Below are positions 38,402-63,445 of a DNA stretch of 64,000 bases, piece after piece (the stretch's first letter is position 1; each line of letters begins with the position of its first letter). The notes under the pieces are model-generated. The model worked only from the letters and a program-made list of their open reading frames with translations, was not told where the DNA came from and made no database searches. Both the position numbers and the translations under genes were made by a program. Source of the stretch: Moorella glycerini (GTDB lineage: Bacteria; Bacillota; DSM-521; Neomoorellales; Neomoorellaceae); assembly GCF_009735625.1 (NCBI RefSeq), contig NZ_CP046244.1:1860001-1924000 (forward strand). Reading direction: 5' to 3'.

Positions 38402-40291
38402 GTGCGCCCGGCATGGGCGTTAACTTAGTGGTGAAAGTCCACTGCAGGCGAGGCAGCACCAGTCTGCTAGCCAAAGGCAAGGGTGTCCATCGCGAGGTGG
38501 GATCCGAAGGAAGCCGGAGGCAAAGCCACGGCCCGATGAACAAGAACCCCATACGAGGCTAGACCGTTCGGATAAGCTGGCGGAACACAGCGAAATCCCA
38601 GGCTGCCAAGGGACGGTAGAGTATATGGGGCGGGCACGGGGCGAAGGTTAACGCTCTTACCCGGGGAGGCCTGCCGGATAAGCCAGGGAGAGCTGGTAAA
38701 CCGTATCGGAAGGTACGGCTGAACCGGCAGGAGTCAGCAGAGGGCATAGTACCCTGGGGGTCATGAACTCCAGGGGAAGGCCCGAACATCAAGTCAGAGG
38801 TGAAACCGGTGCGTTCGCGAGAAGGACAGAGACAGCAGAAAACCCCGCAAGGGGCCTGCCCGCGGGAAGAAGTGGTGAAGCCACGGGGGAGCGCGGGAGG
38901 GCCGAGTTCTTCTCCGGCACAAAGCGGGACGTCACCTCGCGGAGGCCAAGGTAGCGGCCTGATGGAGCAGGTGGTGGCCAGGGAGAACATGCTGGCCGCG
39001 CTGAAACGGGTAGAGCGGAACGGAGGCGCGCCCGGTGTGGACGGCATCCCGACCGAACGGTTGCGGGACCAAATACGCGCCGAGTGGCCGCGCATCCGGG
39101 AAGAACTGCTCGCGGGAACCTACAGACCGAAGCCCGTGCGCCGGGTCGAAATCCCGAAACCCGGGGGAGGCAAACGGATGTTAGGGATACCCACCGTAAT
39201 GGACCGCCTAATCCAGCAGGCCCTCCTGCAAGTATTGACGCCCATCTTCGAACCGCAGTTCTCAGAGGCCAGCTACGGGTTCCGTCCCGGAAGGAAAGCC
39301 CATGATGCGGTAAAGAAGGCGCGGCAATACGTAGAAGAAGGATACGAATGGGCCGTGGACCTGGACATCGAGAAATACTTCGACCGGGTAAACCACGACA
39401 TCCTCATGGCCCGGGTGGCCCGGAAAGTGGCAGATAAGAGGGTACTTACCCTTATCCGCCGCTATCTCCAGGCAGGCGTCATGGTAAACGGAGTGGTCAT
39501 GGAGACGGCAGAAGGAACGCCCCAGGGCGGACCCTTAAGCCCGTTATTGGCCAACATACTCCTGGACGACCTGGACAAAGAACTGGAAAAGAGGGGCCAC
39601 AAGTTCGTCCGTTACGCCGATGACTGCAACATCTACGTCAAAAGCAAACGGGCAGGAGAAAGGGTCATGGCCAGTATCCGCAACTTCCTGCAGGAGCGGT
39701 TGAAGCTCAAGATCAACGAGCAGAAGAGCGCGGTAGACCGGCCGTGGAAGCTGAAATTTCTGGGGTTCAGCATGTACAAACACAAGGCAGGAGTAATCCT
39801 TATCCGCCTGGCGCCGCAGACCATCGACCGGGTGAAAACGAAAATCCGGGAGATAACCGCCCGGAATAAACCCTTAAAGATGGCCGAGCGCATAGAGCGC
39901 CTGAACGCCTACCTGGGCGGCTGGATAGGGTACTTCGCCCTGGCCGACACGCCCAGCATCTTTAAGAACTTAGAAAGCTGGACGCGGCGGAGGCTGCGCA
40001 TGTGTCTCTGGAAGCAGTGGAAGCGAGTACGGACCAGGTACCGCGAACTACGCGCATTGGGATTGCCGGAATGGGTAGTGCATGAATTCGCCAATGCCCG
40101 CAAAGGGCTGTGGCGGATGGCCCATGGGCCAATGAATAGAGCCCTGGGCAATGCCTACTGGCAATCCCAGGGCCTGATGAGCTTAACCGAGCGCTATTCT
40201 TATCTTCGTCAAGCTTGGTGAACCGCCGGATGCGGACCCGCATGTCCGGTGGTGTGAGAGGACGGGGGCTAGCCGCCCCCTCCTACTCGAT
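38402..40291 (+). mobile_element. Group II intron, copy 1 (IIC-like)
   Basis: A 1,890-bp intron starting GTGCGCCCGG and ending TACTCGAT. The first ~400 bases are the structured domain I-III RNA, then the maturase frame (domain IV), then domain V at about 40221-40253, a CCGCCGGA/TCCGGTGG stem with a CGC triad as in IIC introns, and a domain VI hairpin GGGGGC/GCCCCC at 40264-40280. Its 5' exon is a terminator, also a IIC trait. Copy 2 abuts it with no base between. Confidence 0.9.
38800..40221 (+). CDS. ltrA: Group II intron reverse transcriptase/maturase, copy 1
   Basis: The frame encodes up to 473 residues. The reverse transcriptase domain covers GAPGVDGIPTERL, YRPKPVRRVEIPKPGGGKR, YGFRPGRKAHDAV, GTPQGGPLSPLLANI and the catalytic FVRYADDCNIYV. 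A maturase (GIIM-like) domain follows with RIERLNAYLGGWIGYF. No HNH endonuclease is seen. The homologous core starts near ATG 38962; the GTG start at 38800 would add 54 low-complexity residues and is uncertain. The stop is next to domain V. Confidence 0.9.
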   Translation: MKPVRSREGQRQQKTPQGACPREEVVKPRGSAGGPSSSPAQSGTSPRGGQGSGLMEQVVARENMLAALKRVERNGGAPGVDGIPTERLRDQIRAEWPRIREELLAGTYRPKPVRRVEIPKPGGGKRMLGIPTVMDRLIQQALLQVLTPIFEPQFSEASYGFRPGRKAHDAVKKARQYVEEGYEWAVDLDIEKYFDRVNHDILMARVARKVADKRVLTLIRRYLQAGVMVNGVVMETAEGTPQGGPLSPLLANILLDDLDKELEKRGHKFVRYADDCNIYVKSKRAGERVMASIRNFLQERLKLKINEQKSAVDRPWKLKFLGFSMYKHKAGVILIRLAPQTIDRVKTKIREITARNKPLKMAERIERLNAYLGGWIGYFALADTPSIFKNLESWTRRRLRMCLWKQWKRVRTRYRELRALGLPEWVVHEFANARKGLWRMAHGPMNRALGNAYWQSQGLMSLTERYSYLRQAW

Positions 40292-42181
40292 GTGCGCCCG
40301 GCATGGGCGTTAACTTAGTGGTGAAAGTCCACTGCAGGCGAGGCAGCACCAGTCTGCTAGCCAAAGGCAAGGGTGTCCATCGCGAGGTGGGATCCGAAGG
40401 AAGCCGGAGGCAAAGCCACGGCCCGATGAACAAGAACCCCATACGAGGCTAGACCGTTCGGATAAGCTGGCGGAACACAGCGAAATCCCAGGCTGCCAAG
40501 GGACGGTAGAGTATATGGGGCGGGCACGGGGCGAAGGTTAACGCTCTTACCCGGGGAGGCCTGCCGGATAAGCCAGGGAGAGCTGGTAAACCGTATCGGA
40601 AGGTACGGCTGAACCGGCAGGAGTCAGCAGAGGGCATAGTACCCTGGGGGTCATGAACTCCAGGGGAAGGCCCGAACATCAAGTCAGAGGTGAAACCGGT
40701 GCGTTCGCGAGAAGGACAGAGACAGCAGAAAACCCCGCAAGGGGCCTGCCCGCGGGAAGAAGTGGTGAAGCCACGGGGGAGCGCGGGAGGGCCGAGTTCT
40801 TCTCCGGCACAAAGCGGGACGTCACCTCGCGGAGGCCAAGGTAGCGGCCTGATGGAGCAGGTGGTGGCCAGGGAGAACATGCTGGCCGCGCTGAAACGGG
40901 TAGAGCGGAACGGAGGCGCGCCCGGTGTGGACGGCATCCCGACCGAACGGTTGCGGGACCAAATACGCGCCGAGTGGCCGCGCATCCGGGAAGAACTGCT
41001 CGCGGGAACCTACAGACCGAAGCCCGTGCGCCGGGTCGAAATCCCGAAACCCGGGGGAGGCAAACGGATGTTAGGGATACCCACCGTAATGGACCGCCTA
41101 ATCCAGCAGGCCCTCCTGCAAGTATTGACGCCCATCTTCGAACCGCAGTTCTCAGAGGCCAGCTACGGGTTCCGTCCCGGAAGGAAAGCCCATGATGCGG
41201 TAAAGAAGGCGCGGCAATACGTAGAAGAAGGATACGAATGGGCCGTGGACCTGGACATCGAGAAATACTTCGACCGGGTAAACCACGACATCCTCATGGC
41301 CCGGGTGGCCCGGAAAGTGGCAGATAAGAGGGTACTTACCCTTATCCGCCGCTATCTCCAGGCAGGCGTCATGGTAAACGGAGTGGTCATGGAGACGGCA
41401 GAAGGAACGCCCCAGGGCGGACCCTTAAGCCCGTTATTGGCCAACATACTCCTGGACGACCTGGACAAAGAACTGGAAAAGAGGGGCCACAAGTTCGTCC
41501 GTTACGCCGATGACTGCAACATCTACGTCAAAAGCAAACGGGCAGGAGAAAGGGTCATGGCCAGTATCCGCAACTTCCTGCAGGAGCGGTTGAAGCTCAA
41601 GATCAACGAGCAGAAGAGCGCGGTAGACCGGCCGTGGAAGCTGAAATTTCTGGGGTTCAGCATGTACAAACACAAGGCAGGAGTAATCCTTATCCGCCTG
41701 GCGCCGCAGACCATCGACCGGGTGAAAACGAAAATCCGGGAGATAACCGCCCGGAATAAACCCTTAAAGATGGCCGAGCGCATAGAGCGCCTGAACGCCT
41801 ACCTGGGCGGCTGGATAGGGTACTTCGCCCTGGCCGACACGCCCAGCATCTTTAAGAACTTAGAAAGCTGGACGCGGCGGAGGCTGCGCATGTGTCTCTG
41901 GAAGCAGTGGAAGCGAGTACGGACCAGGTACCGCGAACTACGCGCATTGGGATTGCCGGAATGGGTAGTGCATGAATTCGCCAATGCCCGCAAAGGGCTG
42001 TGGCGGATGGCCCATGGGCCAATGAATAGAGCCCTGGGCAATGCCTACTGGCAATCCCAGGGCCTGATGAGCTTAACCGAGCGCTATTCTTATCTTCGTC
42101 AAGCTTGGTGAACCGCCGGATGCGGACCCGCATGTCCGGTGGTGTGAGAGGACGGGGGCTAGCCGCCCCCTCCTACTCGAT
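40292..42181 (+). mobile_element. Group II intron, copy 2 (tandem duplicate)
   Basis: A second 1,890-bp copy begins at the base after copy 1 ends. Every position I compared matches copy 1 with an offset of 1,890, including all reading frames. Its 3' exon is GTTATAATAATAG, upstream of lepA. The 5' exon of copy 2 is the 3' end of copy 1. Confidence 0.92.
40690..42111 (+). CDS. ltrA: Group II intron reverse transcriptase/maturase, copy 2
   Basis: The translated protein is identical to that of copy 1, with YADD, GTPQGGPLSPLL and the maturase domain intact. Both copies therefore seem able to make active maturase. The same start uncertainty applies (GTG 40690 or ATG 40852). Confidence 0.9.
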   Translation: MKPVRSREGQRQQKTPQGACPREEVVKPRGSAGGPSSSPAQSGTSPRGGQGSGLMEQVVARENMLAALKRVERNGGAPGVDGIPTERLRDQIRAEWPRIREELLAGTYRPKPVRRVEIPKPGGGKRMLGIPTVMDRLIQQALLQVLTPIFEPQFSEASYGFRPGRKAHDAVKKARQYVEEGYEWAVDLDIEKYFDRVNHDILMARVARKVADKRVLTLIRRYLQAGVMVNGVVMETAEGTPQGGPLSPLLANILLDDLDKELEKRGHKFVRYADDCNIYVKSKRAGERVMASIRNFLQERLKLKINEQKSAVDRPWKLKFLGFSMYKHKAGVILIRLAPQTIDRVKTKIREITARNKPLKMAERIERLNAYLGGWIGYFALADTPSIFKNLESWTRRRLRMCLWKQWKRVRTRYRELRALGLPEWVVHEFANARKGLWRMAHGPMNRALGNAYWQSQGLMSLTERYSYLRQAW

Positions 42182-45739: not shown

Positions 45740-45794
45740 TCTTTTTATATATGTGAACGTTAGGACACTCGTAAATCTGAGGGGAGGTCGGCCC

Positions 45795-46511
45795 ATGACC
45801 CCGGCGGACAACCTGGCCCGCAAGTGGGAAGGCATCCAGATCCTTTGCGAGGACAGGATGTTTGCTTATAACTTACTGCGCACCACCTTTATCCAGGAGC
45901 CTGCCCGGGAGTTCCTCGATCTCTTGGCGGGGGATGCCTTGATCCAGGTATTTCCCTTCACTGCAGAAAACCGGGAAATCGGGGCCGGGGTGGATCAGGT
46001 AAATAAATACCTGGAGAGGTATACCTCCCTGGCGGCGGACGGCCGGGGTGAAGAGTTGGAGAGGTTGCGGTGGGATTATACCCGGATGTTCGTTGGCCCC
46101 TACCAACTCCCGGCACCACCGTGGGAATCGGCCTATCTAAATGACGAGCGCCTTCTTTTGCAGGCAGAAACCCTGGCCGTCAGACGCGTCTATCTTAGTT
46201 ACGGCTTTATCCCCAGGAACTATCACCAGGAGGCCGATGACCACCTGGGGCTGGAACTGGAATTCATGTTCCGGTTGAGCGAAATGGTGGCGGGGAAAAT
46301 GGCCCTCAGGGATACTGCGGGAGCTGCGGCCATACTCAAAGACCAGGAGGCATTTCTGGCTGATCACATCCTGAAATGGGTGCCCCGGTTTGCCGGGGAT
46401 GTAATGCATAGCTCGGCCACTGATTTTTACCAGGGGATGGCCCGCCTGCTGAAGGGATTTATCCATCTGGACCGGCAGGCCACAGCAGAACTTTTGCAGG
46501 CGATTGCTTGA
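45795..46511 (+). CDS. torD: TorD/DmsD-family molybdoenzyme chaperone
   Basis: TorD-like proteins bind Tat signal peptides and guard apo-molybdoenzymes until cofactor insertion. This 238-residue all-helical protein has the family's LRWDYTRMFVGPYQLPAPPWESAYL region (core YTRMFVGP and PPWES) and EADDHLGLELEFMFRLSEM near residue 140. It lies just upstream of a Tat-signal DmsA-like gene, its probable client. ATG 45795 follows GGGGAGG by seven bases. Confidence 0.9.
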   Translation: MTPADNLARKWEGIQILCEDRMFAYNLLRTTFIQEPAREFLDLLAGDALIQVFPFTAENREIGAGVDQVNKYLERYTSLAADGRGEELERLRWDYTRMFVGPYQLPAPPWESAYLNDERLLLQAETLAVRRVYLSYGFIPRNYHQEADDHLGLELEFMFRLSEMVAGKMALRDTAGAAAILKDQEAFLADHILKWVPRFAGDVMHSSATDFYQGMARLLKGFIHLDRQATAELLQAIA

Positions 46512-46548
46512 GAGGGCGTAACGGGACTTTATCGGAGGTGAGGGGAGC

Positions 46549-49122
46549 ATGAGTAATCTCATCGAAAAAGCCCTGGAATACAAAATGAACCGCAGGGCTT
46601 TCCTGAAATCGACGGCTGTTGCCTCGGCAGCCCTTACCCTGGCGGGCTGCAGCGGTGGTTTGACTCAAGTTTCCAGCGAAGAGGCGGCCCGGCTGGCCCG
46701 TAAGGAAGGCCGGTGGCTTTCCGCCGCCTGCTGGCATAACTGCGGCGGCCGCTGCCTGAATAAAGCCTATGTAGTTGACGGTGTGGTCGTGCGGCAAAAG
46801 ACCGATGACACCCATCCCGACAGCCCTGATTTCCCCCAGCAGCGGGGCTGCGCCCGGGGTCGTTCCCAGCGCAAGCAGGTCTTCGGCGTCGACCGGCTGA
46901 AGTACCCCATGAAGCGCAAGCACTGGGAGCCGGGGGGCGGCAGGAAGGAACTCCGGGGCCGGGACGAATGGGTGCGCATTTCCTGGGATGAGGCCCTGGA
47001 CATTGTAGCCGGCGAGATTAAAAGGATCAAGGAGAAATACGGCAGCAGGGCTATCTTTGTCGGCGGCGGCAATGAAATCAGCAATATCCTGGCCCTCTAC
47101 GGCGGCTATGTATCCCATTGGGGTACTACCTCCTGGGGTTCCTGGCGTTACACCGGTGACATCATCGGCCTGGCGGATGGTTACTTTAATTTCAGCCACA
47201 ACGACCGCTTTGACTTGCGCAATTCCCGGCTTATCGTCCTCTGGGGAGCCAACCCGGCCTGGAGCAGCCTGGGCAACCCCACCTATAACTACCTGCAGGC
47301 CAAAAAGGCCGGGGCTAAATTCATTTTTATCGACCCTATCTACACCGACGCGGCCCGGGTCCTGGGAGGGGAGTGGATCCCCATCCGGCCGGCTACCGAC
47401 CACGCCATGCTCCTGGGTATGGCCTATACCCTGATTACAGAAGACGACCCGGGCACCAACCCGTTAATCGACTGGGACTTCCTGAACCGCTGCACCATTG
47501 GTTTCGATGCCGACCACATGCCGCCGGGGGTGGACCCCAAAGAAAACTTTAAAGACTATGTCCTGGGCACTTATGACGGCGTGCCCAAGACGCCGGAGTG
47601 GGCGGCGGAGATCTGCGGCGTCGACCCCGAAAGGATACGCAGCCTGGCCCGGGAGATCGCTACCACCAAAAGGGTCGCCCTCCTCACCGGCTGGGCGCCG
47701 GCCCGGGTCCGCAACAGTGATTCCTGGCCGCAGATGTTCATGACCCTGGGCTGCATGACCGGCCACATCGGCCAGCCGGGCCGGATGACGGGTGTCAGCT
47801 GCCATCGAAGCACCGCTGACGGCGGGCCGCCCCTGGTTCTCCCCGGCAGCAGCGGTTTGCCCGGCATTAAAAATCCAGTTGCCGACAGCATCAACGATAA
47901 TGAGATTTGGGATGCGATTCTCAAAGGTAAATACACCGCCGGTTATAACGACATCCGGGAGATCAATATCCAGATGATCTACCACGGCGGCGGCGCCACC
48001 CTGCAGACCCGGGACGGGATGATTAAAGGCATTGAGGCCCATCGCAAGGTGGAATTTGTTGTTTCCCATTCCCAGTTCCTGACGACCAACTCCAGGTATG
48101 CCGACGTGGTTCTCCCGGTGACTACCGAGTGGGAACGGGAAGGGGGACTCCTTACCGGCAACCGGGAAATTTTAATCTACTACACTAAAATAACCGAACC
48201 GCTATACGAAGCCCGGGACGACCAGTGGATCGCTATCGAGATCGCCAGGAGGCTGGGCCTTGACCCCCGGCAGGCTTACCCAATCTCCCCCAAACAGCAG
48301 CTCTTCAACCAGCTGGCCGGGGCCAAGGTAATGAAGGAGGACGGTTCCGGGTTTGAGAAGCTGTTGACCATTACGGCAGCGGACATCGCCGCCTGGGGCG
48401 TCCAGGGCGAGCCCCAGCAGGGCCGGATCACTTTACAGGAATTCCAGGAGAAGGGGATTTACCAGGTACCCCGGAAACCCGGCGACAAACTGGGCTTTAT
48501 CGCCCTGAAGGACTTCCGTGAGGACCCCCAGGGCCACCCCTTAAAGACTGCTACCGGTAAATTGGAGATTTATTCCCAGGCCCTGGCCAAAATGGTCAAG
48601 GATAAAGGCTGGACGGAAATCAGGCCCATACCAGCTTACAACCCGCCCCGGGAGGGTTATGAGGACACCTTTGCCGATTGGTCCAAAAAGATTAAGGGAG
48701 ATTATCCTCTGCAGCTAATTACGCCCCATTATCTCCGGCGGTCCCACTCGGTCTTCGACAATATCCCCTGGCTGCGGGAGGCCTTCCCCAACCATGCCTG
48801 GATGAATCCAGTCGATGCCGCGGCGCGGGGGATTAAAGAGGGAGACACCATCCTGATAACCAGCCGGCACGGTAAGACTTTACGCCCGGTACACCTGACG
48901 GAACGGATAATGCCCGGGGTAGTCGCCTGTCCCCACGGCGCCTGGGTGGAGATGGACGAAAAGACGGGTATCGATAAAGCCGGTGCCGATAATATCCTCT
49001 GCGGGGCCATCCCTACGGGTCAGGGGACCTCGGGTTGGAACTCCTGCAATGTCCAGGTCGAAAGATGGACCGGGGCGCCCTTGCCGCCTGACGACCAATG
49101 GCCCCTGCGCATCGTTTTTTAG
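46549..49122 (+). CDS. DmsA-like molybdopterin oxidoreductase, Tat exported (A1)
   Basis: The 857-residue catalytic subunit carries a Tat signal (NRRAFLKS, R15-R16) that ends in LAGC, so Cys34 might be lipidated. A 4Fe-4S site is C61-x3-C65-x3-C69 and C101. Molybdopterin-binding regions include WDEALDIVAGEIKRI, VLWGANPAWSS, FIDPIYTDAARVLGGEW and the C-terminal dinucleotide-binding domain (GVVACPHGAWVEM). It belongs to the DMSO reductase family, DmsA branch; the substrate cannot be read. A B subunit follows 12 bases on; no C subunit follows directly. Confidence 0.9.
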   Translation: MSNLIEKALEYKMNRRAFLKSTAVASAALTLAGCSGGLTQVSSEEAARLARKEGRWLSAACWHNCGGRCLNKAYVVDGVVVRQKTDDTHPDSPDFPQQRGCARGRSQRKQVFGVDRLKYPMKRKHWEPGGGRKELRGRDEWVRISWDEALDIVAGEIKRIKEKYGSRAIFVGGGNEISNILALYGGYVSHWGTTSWGSWRYTGDIIGLADGYFNFSHNDRFDLRNSRLIVLWGANPAWSSLGNPTYNYLQAKKAGAKFIFIDPIYTDAARVLGGEWIPIRPATDHAMLLGMAYTLITEDDPGTNPLIDWDFLNRCTIGFDADHMPPGVDPKENFKDYVLGTYDGVPKTPEWAAEICGVDPERIRSLAREIATTKRVALLTGWAPARVRNSDSWPQMFMTLGCMTGHIGQPGRMTGVSCHRSTADGGPPLVLPGSSGLPGIKNPVADSINDNEIWDAILKGKYTAGYNDIREINIQMIYHGGGATLQTRDGMIKGIEAHRKVEFVVSHSQFLTTNSRYADVVLPVTTEWEREGGLLTGNREILIYYTKITEPLYEARDDQWIAIEIARRLGLDPRQAYPISPKQQLFNQLAGAKVMKEDGSGFEKLLTITAADIAAWGVQGEPQQGRITLQEFQEKGIYQVPRKPGDKLGFIALKDFREDPQGHPLKTATGKLEIYSQALAKMVKDKGWTEIRPIPAYNPPREGYEDTFADWSKKIKGDYPLQLITPHYLRRSHSVFDNIPWLREAFPNHAWMNPVDAAARGIKEGDTILITSRHGKTLRPVHLTERIMPGVVACPHGAWVEMDEKTGIDKAGADNILCGAIPTGQGTSGWNSCNVQVERWTGAPLPPDDQWPLRIVF

Positions 49123-49134
49123 GGAGGCGGGATA

Positions 49135-49683
49135 ATGGCTCAACTGGGCTTTTACTACGACATGACTGCCTGCATCGGCTGCAAAACCTGCCAGGTCGCC
49201 TGTAAAGATAAGAATAACCTGGAGGCAGGGGTGCTCTTCCGCCAGGTCTATACCGTAGAAGGCGGCAAGTTCCCGCACCCCTGGTTTTACCACATCTCCC
49301 TGGGTTGCAACCATTGCGCCCAGGCGCCCTGTGTCCGGAATTGTCCTACCGGCGCCCTCTATAAAAGGGAAGACGGCGTTGTCATGCAGGACCGGAATAA
49401 ATGCATCGGTTGCCGCTACTGCGTCTGGTCCTGCCCCTACGGTGCCCCGCAATATATCGCGTCCGAGGGTAAAGTAGGCAAGTGTAACCTGTGCGCGGAT
49501 TTAATTGACAGGGGCGAACAACCGGCCTGCGTCGCCGCCTGCATAATGCGCGCCCTGGACTGCGGCGATATTGAGGAACTGCGGCGGAAATACGGTGGCA
49601 CGGCGGACATCAAAGGCCTGCCGGCCGCCAGTATAACCCATCCCTCTATTACCATTAAACCGGCCGATGCAGCCAGGAAATAA
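49135..49683 (+). CDS. DmsB-like four-cluster ferredoxin subunit (B1)
   Basis: This 182-residue electron-transfer subunit has sixteen cysteines in four motifs: CIGCKTCQVAC, CNHCAQAPCVRNC, CIGCRYCVWSC and CNLC...CVAAC, binding four 4Fe-4S clusters. It would pass electrons to the A1 subunit. There is no Tat signal of its own, as usual for subunits exported in complex. The ATG follows GGGAGGCGGG. Confidence 0.93.
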   Translation: MAQLGFYYDMTACIGCKTCQVACKDKNNLEAGVLFRQVYTVEGGKFPHPWFYHISLGCNHCAQAPCVRNCPTGALYKREDGVVMQDRNKCIGCRYCVWSCPYGAPQYIASEGKVGKCNLCADLIDRGEQPACVAACIMRALDCGDIEELRRKYGGTADIKGLPAASITHPSITIKPADAARK

Positions 49684-49743
49684 GAGCGGAAAACGGTCCC
49701 TTTAACCCCGGGGTGCCGGTGGCCATCAACAGGGGTGGCGAAT

Positions 49744-51069
49744 GTGATTATTGATATCTGCCAGGAAACCCTGTCCCAGATCAAAAACCCTGCCCTGGCG
49801 AAATACGCCGGGATGTATACGCAGATTTACGAAGAATTTATGGAACAAGTCCGGAGTAGCGGTATAGACGTTGCCCGGGAGAATTGCCATAAAGAGACGC
49901 GGCGGCGAATAGAGGATTTGCGCCGGAAGGGTGTAGTCGTCCGCAACGACGCTAAGAGCCTGTATATCAACCGTATTTCCCCGGCGTGCCTGGCCTGCCA
50001 GAAGGGCGTGGGGAGCCTGACCTTTTTCATCTCCCTTCAATGCCACCGCCGCTGCTTTTTTTGCTTTAACCCCAACCAGGAGAATTACGATTACTACTCC
50101 CATAATAAAAGGGATTGCCTTCAGGAACTGGAGTTTTTACAAAAAACCGGCCGGGAAATAAACCACCTGGCCCTGACAGGGGGAGAACCCCTCCTCCACC
50201 CGGCAGAAACCCTGGCCTTCTTCCGCGCCGCCAAGGAGAAATTTCCAGGTGTTTATACCCGGCTCTATACGGCCGGCGACTTGGCCGGCAAAGAGATCCT
50301 GGCAGAATTGCAAAGGGCCGGCCTGGATGAAATCCGCTTTAGTATCAGGCTGCATGACCCGGAAGGGGTGCGGCGGCGTACTTACGAGCATATCGCCCTG
50401 GCCAGGAAGTATGTTCCCCGGGTAATGGTGGAAATGCCCGTCCTGCCCGGCACAGTTAAACCCATGCAGGAAGTTTTGCTGGAACTGGACCGCCTGGGCA
50501 TCTTTGGCGTAAATTTGCTCGAGTTCTGTTTTCCCTTTAATAACGTGGAAATATACAACGAAAGGGGGTATAAGATCAAGACCCCCCCTTACCGGGTGCT
50601 TTACAACTACTGGTACGGCGGGGGGCTGCCGGTAGCCGGGAGCGAGCTGGATTGCCTGGAGTTATTAGCCTTTGCCCTGGAGAAGGGGTTGCAGCTGGGC
50701 GTTCACTACTGCTCCCTGGAAAATAAAAACACCGGCCAGATTTACCAGCAAAACTACGGCCAGGAAGTAGCCGCCACCCTGTATTTCTCGCCCCGGGATT
50801 ACTTCTTTAAATCGGCCAAGGTGTTCGGTGACGACATTCCCCGGGTCCTGGAAGTCTTTAAGAAGATTAATTACGACCAGTATACCATCAATAAGCAATA
50901 CCGTTATCTTGAATTTCATATCAGCAAGGTTCAAGAGCTGGCGGGACACGACATTGAGGTGGGTATTTCCACCAGCGTGATGGAGAAACGCCGGGACGGC
51001 AGCTACCTGCGGGAATTGAAGGTCGACCTGACGCGCCCGATAATATTTAATCCGGAAACCGACATTTAA
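49744..51069 (+). CDS. Radical SAM protein of unknown function in dms cluster
   Basis: The ~441-residue protein has a radical SAM motif C100-x3-C104-x2-C107 (QCHRRCFFCFNPNQ) and the AdoMet motif TGGEPLLH near residue 147. A second cysteine pair, CLAC, lies upstream at about residues 82-85. The C-terminal third has scattered cysteines but no SPASM-type cluster. The N-terminal ~80 residues are helical and unassigned. It sits between two DmsA/DmsB modules in the same direction. Function unknown: cofactor or enzyme maturation is possible. GTG 49744 follows CAGGGGTGG; GTG 49735 is an alternative. Confidence 0.8.
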   Translation: MIIDICQETLSQIKNPALAKYAGMYTQIYEEFMEQVRSSGIDVARENCHKETRRRIEDLRRKGVVVRNDAKSLYINRISPACLACQKGVGSLTFFISLQCHRRCFFCFNPNQENYDYYSHNKRDCLQELEFLQKTGREINHLALTGGEPLLHPAETLAFFRAAKEKFPGVYTRLYTAGDLAGKEILAELQRAGLDEIRFSIRLHDPEGVRRRTYEHIALARKYVPRVMVEMPVLPGTVKPMQEVLLELDRLGIFGVNLLEFCFPFNNVEIYNERGYKIKTPPYRVLYNYWYGGGLPVAGSELDCLELLAFALEKGLQLGVHYCSLENKNTGQIYQQNYGQEVAATLYFSPRDYFFKSAKVFGDDIPRVLEVFKKINYDQYTINKQYRYLEFHISKVQELAGHDIEVGISTSVMEKRRDGSYLRELKVDLTRPIIFNPETDI

Positions 51070-51091
51070 GTCAAAAAGGAGGAGAGGGAGT

Positions 51092-53491
51092 ATGGCTGAG
51101 GACACCAAACTGTGGCTCAAGCCCATCTCCAGGCGCAAGTTTTTAGCCCTCAGCGCGGCGGCGGCCGGCGGGGCGGCAGCCCTGGCAACCCTGTCATGGG
51201 ACAGCAAGGCCGGGGCGGCAGGCGGTGGTGCTGCCGCTGCTACGGAGGAAACAATTATCCCCACCAGCTGCGTCCATAACTGCGGCGGCCGCTGTCCCCT
51301 GAATGCCCATGTTAAAGACGGTGTGATAACCTGGTTTACTTCCGATCAAGAAGGTAACGACAGTCCTGATTTTCCCCAGGCCCGCGCCTGCCTGAAGGGA
51401 CGTTCCCAGAGGAAACGCCTCTACCATCCTGACCGGTTGAAATATCCCATGAAGCGGGTAGGTAAACGTGGCGAAGGCAAATTTGAAAGGATTTCCTGGG
51501 ACGAAGCCCTGGATACCATTGCCGGTGAACTGCGACGCATCAAAAGCACCTATGGTAACGAAGCGATCTATATCAATTACGCCACCGGCATCTACGGCCA
51601 GATCAGCCAGTCCTGGATAACCCCGGCCTTTGGCGGGGCTTTGAAACGCTTTCTCAATATGTTTGGCGGCTTTCTCGGTTACTACAACACCTATAGCACG
51701 GCATGCTACAGCTATACAGCGCCGTTCACTTACGGGACGGTAGAGGGCGTAAGCCCGGACAACCTGCTGTATTCAAAGCTTATCGTCCTCTTTGCCGATA
51801 ACTCGGCGGAAACCCGCATGGGCGGAGCCAATCACCATTATTTCCTGCTCCAGGCCAAAGAAAAAGGGGCGCGGATAATCGTAGTGGACCCGCGCTATAC
51901 GGATACCGCGGTAAATGTGGCCGACGAATGGATCCCCATCCGGCCTACTACGGATAACGCCCTCCTTGCCGCCCTGGCCTACGTCATGATCACGGAAAAC
52001 CTTCACGACCAGGCCTTTCTGGATAAGTACTGCCTGGGGTTTGATGAAGAGCACATGCCGCCTGATGTGCCTCCCGGCAACTCCTTTAAAAGCTATATCT
52101 TAGGTCTAGGTGAAGACAGGACGCCGAAAACGCCGGCGTGGGCGGAGGCCATTACCGGCGTGCCCCGGAACACCATCATTAAACTGGCGCGGCAAATCGC
52201 TACCATCAAGCCCTGCTGTCTCATCCAGGGCTGGGGTTGGCAACGCCACGCCTATGGCGAACAGCCGGTAAGGGGTTTACCGGTCCTGGCGGCCATGACG
52301 GGCAATATCGGCCTTAAGGGAGGGGGGCCGGGCCTGTACTACGGGGGCCACGGGGTGCCTGTAGCCTGGATGCCTGCGGGAGAAAATCCGGTCAAAGCTT
52401 CTATCCCCTGCTTCATGTGGACGGAGGCCATTGAGCGAGGCCATGAAATGACCGCTGCCGACGGGGTCAAAGGGGCAGATAAGCTCTCCACTGACATCAA
52501 GGTGGTCTGGAATTACGCCAGCAATACTTTGGTAAACCAGCATGCAGATGCCAACCGGACAGCCCGGATACTGTCCGATGAAAAGAAATGCGAACTAATA
52601 ATAGTGCACGACATCTTCCTCACTCCCAGCGCCAGGTTTGCCGATATACTGCTGCCTGACGTCACCCACTTTGAACGGGAAGATATCGTTACTTTCGCCT
52701 CTGGCATCGGCTATGCTATTTACCATCAAAAGGTGATAGATCCACCCCATGAATGCCGGAGCCTCTACTGGGTCTGTAGCGAACTAGCCAAACGGCTGGG
52801 CTTTGGCGACAGGTACACCGAAGGGAAGACAGAAGAAGACTGGCTGCGCTATATTGTGGAGGAAACCCGCAAGGCGAATCCGGACTTCCCTACCTTTGAA
52901 GAATTCCGGCGCAAGGGTATTTATAAAGTGGCGCCCAGGGAACCCATTATCCCCTACAAAAAGCAGATTGAAGATCCGGCCAATAACCCCTTCAAGACGC
53001 CTTCGGGGAAGATAGAGATTTTCTCCCCCCGCCTGTGGGCCATGAACAACCCCCGGGAGATACCGGCCATCCCCAAATATGTCCCGGCCTGGGAGGGTCC
53101 GGAAGATCCCTTGAAGGAGAAATATCCCCTGCAGTGCATCAGTCCCCACTACAAGCGGCGGGTACATTCCACCTTCGATAATGTGGCCTGGCTGGAAGAG
53201 GCGGCCCGGCAAGAGCTATGGATAAACCCGGCAGATGCAGAGAAGCGGGGCATCCGGGACGGTGACCGGGTAAAGGTGTTCAACGACCGCGGTGCAACTA
53301 TAACTTACGCCAGGGTAACCCCCCGGATTCTGCCCGGCGTGGTATCCTTACCCCAGGGCGCCTGGTGGACGCCGGATCCGGACGGGGTAGATACCAGGGG
53401 CTGCGTCAACGTCCTCACTAAATACCATCCCACGCCCCTGGCCCACGGCAACCCCCAGCACACCAACCTGGTGCAGGTGGTTAAAGCTTAA
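51092..53491 (+). CDS. DmsA-like molybdopterin oxidoreductase, Tat exported (A2)
   Basis: The 799-residue protein has a Tat signal (SRRKFLALS, R14-R15) with an alanine-rich hydrophobic stretch and no lipobox. The 4Fe-4S site is C60-x3-C64-x3-C68 and C100. It is closer to E. coli DmsA than A1 is: YYNTYSTACYSYTAPFTYG, IIVVDPRYTDTAVNVADEWIPIRP (in part), AYVMITENLHDQAFLDKYCLG (in part) and GWGWQRHAYGEQPVRGLPVLA (in part). Role: terminal reductase for DMSO or a similar acceptor, by homology. B2 and DmsC follow. Confidence 0.92.
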   Translation: MAEDTKLWLKPISRRKFLALSAAAAGGAAALATLSWDSKAGAAGGGAAAATEETIIPTSCVHNCGGRCPLNAHVKDGVITWFTSDQEGNDSPDFPQARACLKGRSQRKRLYHPDRLKYPMKRVGKRGEGKFERISWDEALDTIAGELRRIKSTYGNEAIYINYATGIYGQISQSWITPAFGGALKRFLNMFGGFLGYYNTYSTACYSYTAPFTYGTVEGVSPDNLLYSKLIVLFADNSAETRMGGANHHYFLLQAKEKGARIIVVDPRYTDTAVNVADEWIPIRPTTDNALLAALAYVMITENLHDQAFLDKYCLGFDEEHMPPDVPPGNSFKSYILGLGEDRTPKTPAWAEAITGVPRNTIIKLARQIATIKPCCLIQGWGWQRHAYGEQPVRGLPVLAAMTGNIGLKGGGPGLYYGGHGVPVAWMPAGENPVKASIPCFMWTEAIERGHEMTAADGVKGADKLSTDIKVVWNYASNTLVNQHADANRTARILSDEKKCELIIVHDIFLTPSARFADILLPDVTHFEREDIVTFASGIGYAIYHQKVIDPPHECRSLYWVCSELAKRLGFGDRYTEGKTEEDWLRYIVEETRKANPDFPTFEEFRRKGIYKVAPREPIIPYKKQIEDPANNPFKTPSGKIEIFSPRLWAMNNPREIPAIPKYVPAWEGPEDPLKEKYPLQCISPHYKRRVHSTFDNVAWLEEAARQELWINPADAEKRGIRDGDRVKVFNDRGATITYARVTPRILPGVVSLPQGAWWTPDPDGVDTRGCVNVLTKYHPTPLAHGNPQHTNLVQVVKA

Positions 53492-53545
53492 AGGCCGAAG
53501 CACCTGGATAAGCCAAAAAGATAAAAACAGAACGGAGGAGAAACT

Positions 53546-54133
53546 ATGGCCGGACAGCTAGGTTTTCACGTCCAGCAGGACCGCTGTATCGGCTGCTTTA
53601 CCTGCCAGATCGCCTGCAAGGATAAAAACGACCTGGAGGTAGGACAGCTCTTCAGGAAAGTCCATGAGATAGCCGGCGGCGGCTATACCGTGGTGGGCAA
53701 CAACGCCGTTAAAGCCGACGTCTACGCCTACTGGATTTCAATAAGTTGCAACCACTGCCAGGAGGCGCCCTGCGTTAAGAACTGCCCCACCGGCGCTATG
53801 CAGAAGCGCCCGGAGGATGGGGTCGTCTTTGTCGATCAGAATAAATGTATCGGTTGCCGTTACTGCGTCTGGAGCTGCCCCTACGAGGCGCCCCAGTATA
53901 ACCCCGAAAGCGGCAAGGTAGGCAAGTGCGACTTCTGCCGCGATCTCCTGGCCAAAGGGGAACAGCCGGCCTGCGTAACCGCCTGCCCCATGCGGGTACT
54001 GGATTTCGGCCCCCTGGACGAACTCAAGAAGAAATACGGCGGTACCAACCAGATCAAAGGCCTGCCTGACCCCAACCTTACCAAACCTTCAATTTTAATA
54101 ACTCCCCACCGGGATGCAGCCCTGGGGAAATAG
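53546..54133 (+). CDS. dmsB: DmsB-like four-cluster ferredoxin subunit (B2)
   Basis: This 195-residue protein has four 4Fe-4S motifs: CIGCFTCQIAC, CNHCQEAPCVKNC, CIGCRYCVWSC and CDFC...CVTAC. It resembles B1 along its full length. It would carry electrons from the DmsC anchor to A2. The ATG follows ACGGAGGAG. It is separated from dmsC by 18 bases. Confidence 0.93.
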   Translation: MAGQLGFHVQQDRCIGCFTCQIACKDKNDLEVGQLFRKVHEIAGGGYTVVGNNAVKADVYAYWISISCNHCQEAPCVKNCPTGAMQKRPEDGVVFVDQNKCIGCRYCVWSCPYEAPQYNPESGKVGKCDFCRDLLAKGEQPACVTACPMRVLDFGPLDELKKKYGGTNQIKGLPDPNLTKPSILITPHRDAALGK

Positions 54134-54151
54134 GAATGGGAGGAGAAGCTA

Positions 54152-55003
54152 ATGGGTAAAGAATGGGCGCTGGTACTTTTCACCTTACTGGCCCAGATGA
54201 GCGTAGGTTTAATGGTCGTCGCCCAGGCCTTGAATTTAAAGCAGAGGGAAGGGCTCAAGCCGGTTCTCCTGTGGGTAGGCATCCTTATGGCGGCCAGCAT
54301 GATTGTCTCTCTAGGACACCTGGGCAGCCCTGTAGGAGCGCCGCTGGCTGTTCTGAATTTGAAGACCTCGTGGCTCAGCCGGGAGATTTTCTTCTCGGCC
54401 GGGTTCTTCGTCCTGTGGCTGGTGAGTTACTATGTTGAGGTGCGCAGCGGGGCCGGTGAGGGGGCCAGGGCCGCCCTGGGCTGGCTGGCCGGCCTGTGCG
54501 GGATAATAGCCCTCGTCAGCATGGCCAACATCTATGTCCACACCATCCTGCCGGCGTGGGAGACGGCCTATACCCATATAGTCTTCTACAGTACGGCCCT
54601 GGTGCTGGGGGCCATCCTCTACGCCGTGCTGGCCTACCGGGCCCGGCAGGAAGGCCAGGGAAGCATGCTGAAAACAACGGTCATCCTGGCGGTCATCGGC
54701 GTGGCCCTGCAGCTGGTCAGCCTGCCGCCCTACCTGGCCAGCTTGAGCGCCGGACCGGTAGCGGCGCAGGAGAGTGCCCGCCTGCTCCTGGGAGCAGCGC
54801 CGGCCCTGGTATTGAGCCAGGCCCTGGCGATAATCGGTGGCCTTGTCTTTACCTTCCTGGCCCTGCGGGCGTACGGCGAAAATGGTTCGGCCCTGACGGG
54901 ACAGTGGCTCTACGGCGCCCTGGCCCTCCTCATCCTGGCCGAACTAGCCAGCCGCTATCTTTTCTATGCCACCGGGGTCAGCATTATGGTCGGCCAGTTC
55001 TGA
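54152..55003 (+). CDS. dmsC: DmsC-like membrane anchor
   Basis: This 283-residue protein has about eight hydrophobic helices and the DmsC family features: EWALVLFTLLAQMSVGLMV at the N-terminus, SLGHLGSPVGAPLAVLNLKTSWLSREI (core LGHLGSP and SWLSREI) and an IYVHTILPAWET loop. DmsC anchors the AB subunits and oxidises quinol. It is the only anchor in the island, so it may serve both A1B1 and A2B2. The ATG follows GGGAGGAG. Confidence 0.92.
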   Translation: MGKEWALVLFTLLAQMSVGLMVVAQALNLKQREGLKPVLLWVGILMAASMIVSLGHLGSPVGAPLAVLNLKTSWLSREIFFSAGFFVLWLVSYYVEVRSGAGEGARAALGWLAGLCGIIALVSMANIYVHTILPAWETAYTHIVFYSTALVLGAILYAVLAYRARQEGQGSMLKTTVILAVIGVALQLVSLPPYLASLSAGPVAAQESARLLLGAAPALVLSQALAIIGGLVFTFLALRAYGENGSALTGQWLYGALALLILAELASRYLFYATGVSIMVGQF

Positions 55004-55077
55004 GTCAGGCTATCATATTATTACTTACGCCTGACTGACATTAACAAAGGATATGGCAGGTATCTTCTTCCACCTTC

Positions 55078-55106
55078 TTGACCGTGCGCAAGTAAAGTAC
55101 GATAAT
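55078..55106 (+). promoter_or_regulatory. Promoter upstream of the third dms module
   Basis: TTGACC (55078-55083) and GATAAT (55101-55106) have a 17-base spacer. Transcription would start near 55113, just before a terminator hairpin. Confidence 0.6.
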
Positions 55107-55130
55107 ATAAAGTGAGAATTTTAGTTTAGA

Positions 55131-55155
55131 AGCGGGCTGACCATGCCCGCTTTTT
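55131..55155 (+). terminator. Terminator/attenuator in the A3 leader
   Basis: AGCGGGC (55131-55137) pairs with GCCCGCT (55145-55151), followed by TTTTT. It is about 20-40 bases after the predicted start site and 100 bases before the gene, so it may attenuate the A3 transcript or end a tiny RNA. Confidence 0.6.
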
Positions 55156-55256
55156 CAAAATGAGGGCGGGAAAACTCTGGAGACTATTGCCGGGAGCCTT
55201 TCAGGCCTATGCAACCATAACCTTGCCGGACCGCTGATTAACGGAGGTGGAGCTTG

Positions 55257-57290
55257 ATGGCGCCGCGTTTTTACCGCCATACCTGCCCCCGGAATTGCTA
55301 CAACACCTGCGGCCTGATCTCCCTGGTAGAAGGGGGAAAAATCAAGGAGCTGGCCGGCGATCCGGCCCACGGTTACAGCCGGGGACACCTTTGCCGTCTC
55401 GGCTACAGCTACCTGGAGATCTTCAACCATCCAGAGCGGGTGCTGCACCCTTTACGGCAGGAGCCCCGGGGTTCCGGCAACTGGCGCCGGATAGGCTGGG
55501 ACGAAGCCCTGGCCCTCATTGCCGGTAAAATGCTGGACCTCAAGGGACGTTACGGTTCCTTTTTACCAGTCTTCTTTTACAGCAGTTCGGGTAACATAGG
55601 TCTCCTGCACCAGGCCTGGAACTGGCTGGCCCGCAGCCTGGGCGAGGTGACGGTAGCGTCGGGTTCCCTCTGCTGGAGCGCCGGCCTGGACGCCATGGTC
55701 TACGGTTACGGCACCCACAACCACCCCGACCCGGAGGTCATGGCCCGGGCCAGCTACCTGTTGCTCTGGGGGGCCAACCCGGCCTGGACGGCAGTCCACC
55801 AGATGGAATATATCTACCAGGCCCGGGAAAGGGGTGCCCGTCTGGTTGTTATTGATCCTGTTTTTACAGCCACGGCGGCCCGGGCCGACTTCTATGTCCA
55901 GATTAAACCCGGCAGCGACGGCGCCCTGGCTTTAGGACTGGCCCGCCATCTGTGGCAGAAAGGGTTGGTAGATAATTACTACCTGGAAAACCATGTGCAG
56001 GGATGGCCGGAGTGGCGGGAATACCTGGCCGGCCTGGATCCCGCGGAGCTGGCTGCAGCTTCGGGCGTGCCACCGGCCCTAATGGCCCGCCTGGCGGAGG
56101 AGTACGCCGCCGGCAACCCGGCGGCCATCTGGATAGGGATAGGCCTGCAGCGCCACATCAATGGCGGCCAGAACATTCGGGCCATCAACGCCCTGGCGGC
56201 CATGACCGGAAACCTGGGCCGGGAGGGGGGCGGCGTTTATTATGCCACCCCGGTAGTGAGCGAGCTTTTTACCACCTCCTGGCCGGGGTGGATGCGCCCT
56301 GCCGGCAGCGCAAGGCAAATACCTATCCATAATCTGGCCCGGGGCCTGAAGGAGGCAGACAATCCCCCGGTGAAAATGGCCCTCCTGGCCAATGCCAACC
56401 CCTTGAGCCAAAACGCTGTTACAGAAGAATTACATCGGACCCTGGCGAATCTGGAGCTGGTGGTCTTAAGCGGCCAGTTCCTGACCGAGACGGCGCGGGT
56501 GGCCGACATCTTCCTGCCGGCAACTACCTTTTTTGAAAGCTGGGATGTTGTTCCCAGCTACTGGCACCGCTGGATAGGGATCAATGAACCGGCCGTACCT
56601 CCCCGGGGTGAATGCCGCTCCGAACTCCAGATGGCGAGTGACCTGGCCAGGGTTCTAAAGCAAATGAACCCTGGAAGCTGTCCTTTTCCCACCGGTTGGA
56701 CGGAAGAAGAGTGGCTGGAGCAGGTTTTTAACCCGGAGGTTTACCGGTTACTGGGGATAAACCATTACCGCGAACTCCTGGACGGCCCCAGGAAATTAAA
56801 ACTGCCGGTCAATCCCTGGACCGGGGAGCGGTTCGCCACCCCTTCCGGGCGGTATGAAATCTTTTCGGACCGGGCGGCGACAGCCGGCCTGCTTCCCCTG
56901 CCGGTTTACCAGCCGGCAGCCGCAGGTACGGAGGCCTACCCCTACCGTCTTCTGACCCCTCACACCAGCGCCGGCTTGAACTCCCAGTTTTATAACCTCG
57001 ACGACGTACCGGAAGCCTTGGCCCTGGTCGATCCCAGCCTGGCCAGGGAGCGGGGCCTGGCCGACGGCAGCCCGGCCCGCCTTTACAATGAGTTGGGAGA
57101 AGTTATAATCACGGTGGGCATAACTGAACTGGTGCCGCCGCAAACTATCCTCTGCCACCAGCGGCCCCTGCCCGGAGGCCAGGCTATCAACGACCTTACC
57201 CCGCCCCTGGCCACTGATATGGGAAGCATCACCAGCGGCGGCCCCGCCTTGGCCTATTATGACACCTTTGTCAATATCGCCCCGGTGTAG
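55257..57290 (+). CDS. Cytoplasmic DmsA-like molybdopterin oxidoreductase (A3)
   Basis: The 677-residue protein has no Tat signal; its 4Fe-4S site is right at the N-terminus (C10-x3-C14-x3-C18, C46), so it works in the cytoplasm. Motifs include WDEALALIAGKML, GSLCWSAGLDAMVYGYG, LLWGANPAWTAVHQ, VVIDPVFTATAARADFY and AMTGNLGREGGGVYY. It is shorter than A1 and A2. A ferredoxin subunit (B3) lies 240 bases downstream. Reaction unknown. ATG 55257 is six bases after GGAGGTGG. Confidence 0.88.
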   Translation: MAPRFYRHTCPRNCYNTCGLISLVEGGKIKELAGDPAHGYSRGHLCRLGYSYLEIFNHPERVLHPLRQEPRGSGNWRRIGWDEALALIAGKMLDLKGRYGSFLPVFFYSSSGNIGLLHQAWNWLARSLGEVTVASGSLCWSAGLDAMVYGYGTHNHPDPEVMARASYLLLWGANPAWTAVHQMEYIYQARERGARLVVIDPVFTATAARADFYVQIKPGSDGALALGLARHLWQKGLVDNYYLENHVQGWPEWREYLAGLDPAELAAASGVPPALMARLAEEYAAGNPAAIWIGIGLQRHINGGQNIRAINALAAMTGNLGREGGGVYYATPVVSELFTTSWPGWMRPAGSARQIPIHNLARGLKEADNPPVKMALLANANPLSQNAVTEELHRTLANLELVVLSGQFLTETARVADIFLPATTFFESWDVVPSYWHRWIGINEPAVPPRGECRSELQMASDLARVLKQMNPGSCPFPTGWTEEEWLEQVFNPEVYRLLGINHYRELLDGPRKLKLPVNPWTGERFATPSGRYEIFSDRAATAGLLPLPVYQPAAAGTEAYPYRLLTPHTSAGLNSQFYNLDDVPEALALVDPSLARERGLADGSPARLYNELGEVIITVGITELVPPQTILCHQRPLPGGQAINDLTPPLATDMGSITSGGPALAYYDTFVNIAPV

Positions 57291-57530
57291 GAAAGACCGG
57301 CGGGCAGGTTCCCTGAAGGCGCGCTTGCGCCTTGACTAAGAAGAGCAGAGCAGACCGAGGAAAAAAGCGAGGTCGAAGTTTCAAGTTTCACGGCCCGCAG
57401 GGCCGGGTTTAGCCGCGCCCGAGACCTGCGGAGCTTGAACAAGTATAGGGGCGCAACAGCGCCTGAAGGGAACCTGCCCTACCAGGTAGCACAATGACTT
57501 GATAAGCATTTTCGGAGGGGGGTGCGAAGG
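57291..57530 (+). other. Structured spacer between A3 and B3
   Basis: Two 21-base arms (57302-57322 and 57459-57479) are inverted repeats matching at 19 positions; their outer parts read GGGCAGGTTCCCT and AGGGAACCTGCCC. Inside lie further hairpins: GGCGC-GCTT-GCGCC, GGCCC-GCA-GGGCC and GGCGC-AACA-GCGCC. The segment looks like a folded RNA or an inserted palindromic element. No gene is seen. Confidence 0.55.
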
Positions 57531-58079
57531 ATGCGACTGGGTTTTTTCCTGGACCTGAACCGTTGCCTTGGTTGCCGGGCCTGTGAGGGGGCCTGCCAGC
57601 ACTGGAAGGGTCTCGGGTTTCCCCTGCGGCAGGTGCGGACCTTTGCCGGCCAGGTAAGGGGCCGGTGGCAGGAATATTATCTCTCCCTGGCCTGCAACCA
57701 TTGTGAAAACCCCGAGTGTTTCCGGGTCTGTCCCGAACGCACCTATAACAAGCGACGGGACGGCATCGTCCTGCATAACAGCGGGCGGTGCAGAGGTTGT
57801 AACCGTTGCGTCCGCGCCTGCCCCTTCGGGGCTCCCCGTTACAACCTGACAACAGGGAAAGTTGAAAAGTGTGACCTCTGCGTAGAGAGAATAGAAAATG
57901 GCCTGCCACCGGCCTGCGTTGAAGCCTGTCCGGTCAAGGCCCTGCAGGTGTTACAATTAGATGAGGGTAAGGAACTGGGAGAGAAGTGGGTACCGGGGCT
58001 GGCTGACGTCAACATCACCCGACCCACCCTGCGCCTGAAGGCTCCGGAGGAAGGGGAAAGGTTCTTTCTTGTTGGTTAA
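57531..58079 (+). CDS. Ferredoxin subunit for A3 (B3)
   Basis: This 182-residue four-cluster ferredoxin has CLGCRACEGAC, CNHCENPECFRVC, CRGCNRCVRAC and CDLC...CVEAC. It is more divergent than B1 and B2. As neighbour of A3 it is the likely electron-transfer subunit of a soluble enzyme. ATG 57531 follows GGAGGGGGG; GTG 57522 overlaps that site. The pucR-like gene overlaps its end. Confidence 0.9.
   Translation: MRLGFFLDLNRCLGCRACEGACQHWKGLGFPLRQVRTFAGQVRGRWQEYYLSLACNHCENPECFRVCPERTYNKRRDGIVLHNSGRCRGCNRCVRACPFGAPRYNLTTGKVEKCDLCVERIENGLPPACVEACPVKALQVLQLDEGKELGEKWVPGLADVNITRPTLRLKAPEEGERFFLVG

Positions 58080-60531: not shown

Positions 60532-63445
<2,914 letters not shown>

Follow-up and report, generated by a model that had tools for sequence, protein, structure and literature searches.

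A radical SAM protein family linked to a distinct clade of DMSO-reductase-type molybdoenzymes, with a likely role in their maturation

The window (the whole 64,000-nucleotide stretch of the Moorella glycerini contig NZ_CP046244.1 that was analysed) contains a tight run of genes on the same strand at 45753-55003, in the order TorD-DmsA1-DmsB1-rSAM-DmsA2-DmsB2-DmsC, where rSAM is a radical SAM protein (Table 1). The co-directional position of the rSAM gene between dmsB1 and dmsA2, reported in the initial annotation, was confirmed from the coordinates: the gene lies 60 bases downstream of the end of DmsB1 (49683) and 22 bases upstream of the start of DmsA2 (51092). The open reading frame is genuine and intact. 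Its GTG at 49744 is the start shared by the homologues and has AGGGGTGG five bases 5' of it; an alternative, longer in-frame start is present at 49735. Because 115 of the 184 base differences from the 86%-identical relative in genome G005 fall at third codon positions, the gene is, judging from this comparison, under purifying selection. It is single-copy in its own genome, which carries 19 molybdopterin-dinucleotide-binding genes.

Table 1. Features of the rSAM protein and of the surrounding dms run in the window (nucleotide positions in the window unless given as residues of rSAM)
Feature	Position	Strand	Description
TorD/DmsD-type chaperone gene	45753..46511	+	First gene of the run; Pfam Nitrate_red_del 110 bits (cut-off 22.2)
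DmsA1	46549..49122	+	Tat-exported MopB catalytic subunit, distinct clade; TIGR02166 547 bits, below the 777.7 cut-off
DmsB1	49135..49683	+	Iron-sulfur electron-transfer subunit; TIGR02951 238.7 bits, above the 214.1 cut-off
rSAM gene	49744..51069	+	441 aa, radical SAM, dms-linked family
rSAM N-terminal region	residues 1-78		Helical/beta-hairpin region
rSAM CxxC	residues 82/85		
rSAM CxxxCxxC	residues 100/104/107		
rSAM HYCSxENK	residues 321-328		
rSAM C-terminal domain	residues 338-441		Alpha/beta domain
DmsA2	51092..53491	+	Canonical DmsA/YnfE-type catalytic subunit; TIGR02166 1084.6 bits, above the 777.7 cut-off
DmsB2	53546..54133	+	Iron-sulfur subunit; TIGR02951 268.9 bits
DmsC	54152..55003	+	Membrane anchor; Pfam DmsC 91.8 bits
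Hairpin 3' of dmsC	55132..55150	+	GC-rich hairpin then T run; direct sequence reading

The window TorD scored 78.6 bits with the NCBIfam TorD model, under the equivalog cut-off, and was assigned by its Pfam Nitrate_red_del/TorD domain. DmsA1 fell short of the DmsA/YnfE (TIGR02166) cut-off and formed a separate clade in the tree. Its S195 aligned to the Mo-ligand Ser of E. coli DmsA, and this Ser was present in 42 of 42 sequences, as in a Ser-coordinating DMSO reductase. Downstream of the run lies a third dms module, DmsA3/DmsB3 at 55254-58079, together with a PucR-type regulator. The hairpin that follows dmsC probably closes the TorD-to-DmsC unit, unless it belongs to a dmsA3 leader. A promoter-like TTGACC-17-GATAAT was also seen at 55078-55106, approximately 25 bases before the hairpin and upstream of DmsA3, and the two elements together (55078-55150) might act in attenuation or termination. 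A polyferredoxin gene was sought in the window and was absent; two relatives of the same genus have a four-cluster polyferredoxin between DmsC and DmsA3 (L018:3411-4562 and L020:3309-4439), where the window has none (55003-55254). Elsewhere in the window, tandem identical 473-aa reverse-transcriptase ORFs at 38800-40221 and 40690-42111, approximately 1.9 kb apart, resemble group II intron copies, and a 566-aa IS1634-type transposase-like ORF at 61597-63297 (minus strand) adjoins the hrcA/grpE genes.

The cysteines of the rSAM protein are found in CLAC (C82, C85), CHRRCFFC (C100, C104, C107) and HYCS (C323). When 47 homologues were aligned, C85, C100, C104, C107 and C323 were invariant and C82 was present in 46. 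The spacing C100-x3-C104-x2-C107, together with a PF04055 score of 67 bits (cut-off 29.5), placed the protein in the radical SAM superfamily. No SPASM/twitch domain was found in the window protein, which has zero cysteines beyond C323; the CxxxCxxC, the preceding CLAC pair and the lack of a SPASM cluster, all described initially, were each read directly in the sequence. In an NCBIfam scan no model reached its cut-off. HxsC (TIGR03977) was the best family profile, though weak, with 42.9 bits against an equivalog cut-off of 267.9, and the scores for Viperin/pVip (37.3 bits, equivalog cut-off 180) and MoaA (28.8 bits, equivalog cut-off 284) were likewise under threshold; for NifB, no family model was reported at E 0.001. 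The PADLOC pVip match was weak, and an anti-phage viperin identity was ruled out by score and genomic context. Family-model and literature searches gave no assigned function for close homologues, in agreement with the initial annotation, and none of the papers examined mentioned a radical SAM protein of dms clusters in a relevant way.

The AF2 model of rSAM (pLDDT 88.5) comprised an N-terminal helical region, a core at residues ~80-337 and a C-terminal alpha/beta domain. The top fold match was NifB (Z 17.4, rmsd 3.0, 209 residues), followed by viperin, SkfB (Z 15.7, rmsd 3.0 over 213 residues) and PflA; MoaA, LipA and NifB were all among the matches. These matches fail to tell whether the substrate is a peptide, a cofactor or a nucleotide. 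Searched by itself, the C-terminal domain (pLDDT 93.1) gave no Foldseek match at E 0.001, the best Z of 4.8 (UreE, 55 residues) being too weak to interpret. Because C82 and C85 lie before the first core strand of the model and C323 ends the last, it is plausible that these three residues bind an auxiliary Fe-S cluster.

Homologues of rSAM occur in other members of the genus and family, in Desulfosporosinus, Desulfitobacterium, Chloroflexota and Eggerthellaceae, and in one Deferribacteraceae MAG. The linkage to dms genes was firm: a MopB, DmsB or TorD gene lay within 4 kb of rSAM in 38 of the 48 homologous loci, mostly on the same strand. The question raised initially, whether TorD and DmsA1-like genes accompany this family, was thereby answered positively for Bacillota, Coriobacteria, Chloroflexota and the Deferribacteraceae MAG. 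The remaining 10 loci had no MopB, DmsB or TorD within 4 kb; several of these were cut by a contig end (L013, L055, L224) or came from genomes with DmsA1 elsewhere (G142, G357, G393). At one locus (G016, L019:7193-11006) rSAM was followed only by a canonical DmsA-type gene, and DmsB and TorD were not detected beside it. In several lineages the immediate neighbour of rSAM was TorD, and in Chloroflexota (L004, L005, L221-L223) the genes for TorD, a four-cluster polyferredoxin and rSAM overlapped or abutted. No Moco gene was identified adjoining rSAM among the neighbours scanned, and a non-systematic inspection noticed no small precursor peptide beside the gene. Since a polyferredoxin adjoined rSAM in nine loci, and NapF acts in the cluster assembly of NapA (PMC10609526), the two proteins might build or repair the 4Fe-4S clusters of DmsA or DmsB, much as has been proposed for NapF. 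We consider this quite improbable, as the DmsA and DmsB clusters are ordinary, canonical Dms enzymes manage without rSAM, the N-terminal cluster cysteines of DmsA1 and DmsA2 are identical, and the window is without a polyferredoxin.

Co-occurrence was counted in 692 genomes from three phyla, sampled as Bacillota (398), Coriobacteria (149) and Anaerolineae (145), with one weak rSAM match in Coriobacteria and two in Anaerolineae excluded. In the pooled set, rSAM was present in 29 genomes, a DmsA1-clade reductase in 30 and both in 26 (Fisher p about 9e-40). The corresponding numbers were 10, 9 and 8 for Bacillota (p 3e-14), 13, 13 and 12 for Coriobacteria (p 1e-15) and 6, 8 and 6 for Anaerolineae (p 2e-9); these p values are overstated because the genomes share descent, and the stronger point is the repetition in three phyla. 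Within the genus of the window, rSAM occurred only in the three genomes with DmsA1, and three others (G001, G004, G010) lacked both while having about as many MopB candidates. DmsA2-type reductases were found in 19 Bacillota genomes, 11 of them without rSAM, which bears out the earlier statement that standard DMSO reductases do not need a radical SAM enzyme. The association was still positive (p 2e-10), so DmsA2 is a looser companion of rSAM than DmsA1 rather than an unrelated one. Each rSAM genome of the Bacillota sample had DmsA1 or DmsA2. Exceptions were seen in both directions: rSAM without DmsA1, beside or with a canonical DmsA2, in G016 and G315, and DmsA1 without a detected rSAM in G268, G467, G574 and G697.

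The gene order around rSAM differed among genomes while the same cluster parts recurred in distant phyla, and this suggests transfer of those parts. The rSAM gene could on that basis be a bystander co-transferred with dms clusters, a reading that was already disfavoured and appears highly improbable. In four Bacillota genomes (G142, G355, G357, G393) rSAM and DmsA1 co-occurred at separate loci, so that their link is more than operon hitch-hiking; the catalytic residues were also kept in the 47 homologues, and the gene shows purifying selection.

In the MopB tree, DmsA1 formed its own clade with full support, and a second rSAM-linked clade, DmsA_b, which is without Ser at the Mo-ligand position, was placed elsewhere. 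The rSAM tree split in parallel in Eggerthellaceae and kin, with one subclade located by DmsA1 (8/8) and another by DmsA_b (9/9). Subclade and MopB clade therefore matched in all 17 clear cases, with p 4e-5 if these are independent. Outside this two-way pairing were the divergent loci L072 and L073, by DmsA2-like genes, and L093, which was basal. A third Eggerthellaceae-type subclade (L012, L013, L076, L077, L078) was not firmly tied to dms genes; the most that its loci offer is a MopB gene in the reverse orientation. A search for a modification site among the signature residues of DmsA1 versus DmsA2 and DmsA_b returned clade markers, mostly Trp, Asp, Asn and Gly, and no convincing target; the shared C356 was rejected, since its position is loosely C/T/S.

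One alternative is a metabolic enzyme that makes or activates a small molecule which works together with the reductases, as electron carrier or as reducible substrate. The nucleotide-acting viperin and MoaA are among the fold and profile matches, and the reductase substrates of most carriers are not established; nevertheless, we regard this as improbable because each rSAM paralogue of a single genome goes with its own MopB clade, a chaperone (TorD) immediately adjoins rSAM in several lineages, and DMSO requires no such step. Another alternative is that, in this subset of reductases, rSAM alters Mo-bisPGD at its pyranopterin or dithiolene, or puts a sulfur on the Mo. The MopB clades served differ in their protein ligand, so the item they share may be the cofactor, and CxxC with C323 fits an auxiliary cluster such as those of the fold matches MoaA, LipA and NifB. 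Most genomes rich in MopB genes are, however, without rSAM, which pairs with particular MopB clades and not with Moco genes, and cofactor editing is judged unlikely.

A link to physiology is provided by Moorella thermoacetica. In a study of this species, three linked dms clusters were described, of which dmsB2A2 (Mothe_c13700-13710) and dmsB3A3 (Mothe_c13730-13740) were up 3.3-4.5 log2 units with DMSO (PMC13391211). By position and order, these induced loci appear to match the flanking modules of the window. In the relative G005 the genes run, by increasing coordinates, DmsB2, DmsA2, rSAM, DmsB1, DmsA1; position and order likewise suggest that G005 is M. thermoacetica. The unnamed gene between the two induced pairs, Mothe_c13720 by numbering, should be rSAM because the G005 order has rSAM between DmsA2 and DmsB1. 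The initial annotation had raised a ‘previously undescribed respiratory pathway’. This was not supported: by position and order the flanking modules match the M. thermoacetica clusters, two of three of which were DMSO-induced (PMC13391211), and since the loci appear to be the same cluster, the pathway would be DMSO reduction. The rSAM protein is a new, uncharacterised partner of a known kind of enzyme.

The travel of the rSAM family with one MopB reductase branch across several phyla suggests that, ahead of export, the linked reductases pass through a required maturation step that has gone unrecognised. On balance, we think it somewhat more probable than otherwise that rSAM is a dedicated cytoplasmic maturase of DMSO-reductase-type molybdoenzymes, chiefly those in the DmsA1 clade, acting on the TorD-held reductase before Tat export. 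The apo-catalytic subunit would be held by the TorD chaperone prior to export, while the CxxxCxxC cluster and SAM would generate a 5'-deoxyadenosyl radical. The electron would come from ferredoxin, and we infer that the adjacent four-cluster polyferredoxin could serve in many loci. The enzyme would then alter a residue of the subunit or, less favoured, the bound Mo-bisPGD cofactor; the second site, with ligands C82, C85 and C323, may hold an auxiliary Fe-S cluster that binds substrate or gives sulfur. A Tat-exported reductase has to be completed inside the cell, since SAM and reduced ferredoxin are available in the cytoplasm, and action of rSAM on the complex of TorD and apo-subunit is the simplest reading. 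Between protein and Mo cofactor as the item modified, we lean slightly to the protein because rSAM paralogues pair with particular MopB clades; the difference of these clades at the Mo-ligand position leaves some probability to cofactor editing. In support of the maturase role, TorD, polyferredoxin and rSAM constitute a set of cytoplasmic accessory proteins in Chloroflexota. NapF is a four-cluster cytoplasmic maturation factor for NapA (PMC10609526), and the catechol dehydroxylases, of the same superfamily, require several dedicated accessory genes for activity (PMC11887054). The NifB-like fold of the model and the weak profile match to the peptide maturase HxsC also count in its favour. Against it stand the placement of rSAM-linked MopBs in different clades, the lack of a marked target residue, the 10 of 48 unlinked loci and the exceptions in both directions. 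We would give an even chance to the reading that, ahead of Tat export, a cognate rSAM maturase equips the enzymes of a DMSO-reductase-family clade with a post-translational modification installed by radical chemistry, or edits their molybdopterin cofactor.

In the usual picture, a molybdoenzyme requires chaperones, Moco insertion, sulfuration and cluster assembly to mature. If the proposal is true, a radical SAM enzyme devoted to this task would introduce a further chemical step, absent from current accounts of molybdoenzyme assembly, and this step could help explain the difficulty of obtaining some such reductases in active form in foreign hosts.

Among known systems, TorD/DmsD and NapF resemble the proposed rSAM maturase in being cytoplasmic proteins devoted to one Tat-exported molybdoenzyme, next to which they are encoded, and the rSAM family indeed has TorD and a four-cluster ferredoxin as neighbours. 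The radical SAM fold sets rSAM apart from all of these, and no maturation factor of that kind is mentioned in a 2023 review on how molybdoenzymes mature (PMC10609526). The peptide maturases HxsC, PqqE and SkfB belong to the same superfamily and include the best, albeit weak, profile and a fold match, whereas rSAM is far under the family cut-offs, is without SPASM/twitch cysteines and has no precursor peptide noticed nearby. NifB, the top structural match, matures a metalloenzyme and has additional Fe-S ligands close to its radical SAM motif; it shares 17% identity with rSAM, whose partners are molybdopterin enzymes and not nitrogenase, and whose C-terminal domain lies outside the match. The extra CxxC, noted initially as a CLAC pair, is not peculiar to the rSAM gene and belongs to a wider group, because distant homologues away from dms genes share the cysteine order. 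Such proteins, matching at 1e-21 to 1e-34, were found in G050, G443, G617 and G696, with other genes as neighbours in G050 and G443. These dms-unlinked radical SAM proteins have the CxxC, the CxxxCxxC and a late CS in the same order as rSAM, and presumably resemble COG2108. The HYCSxENK form and the dms link, in contrast, are specific to the subfamily of the window protein.
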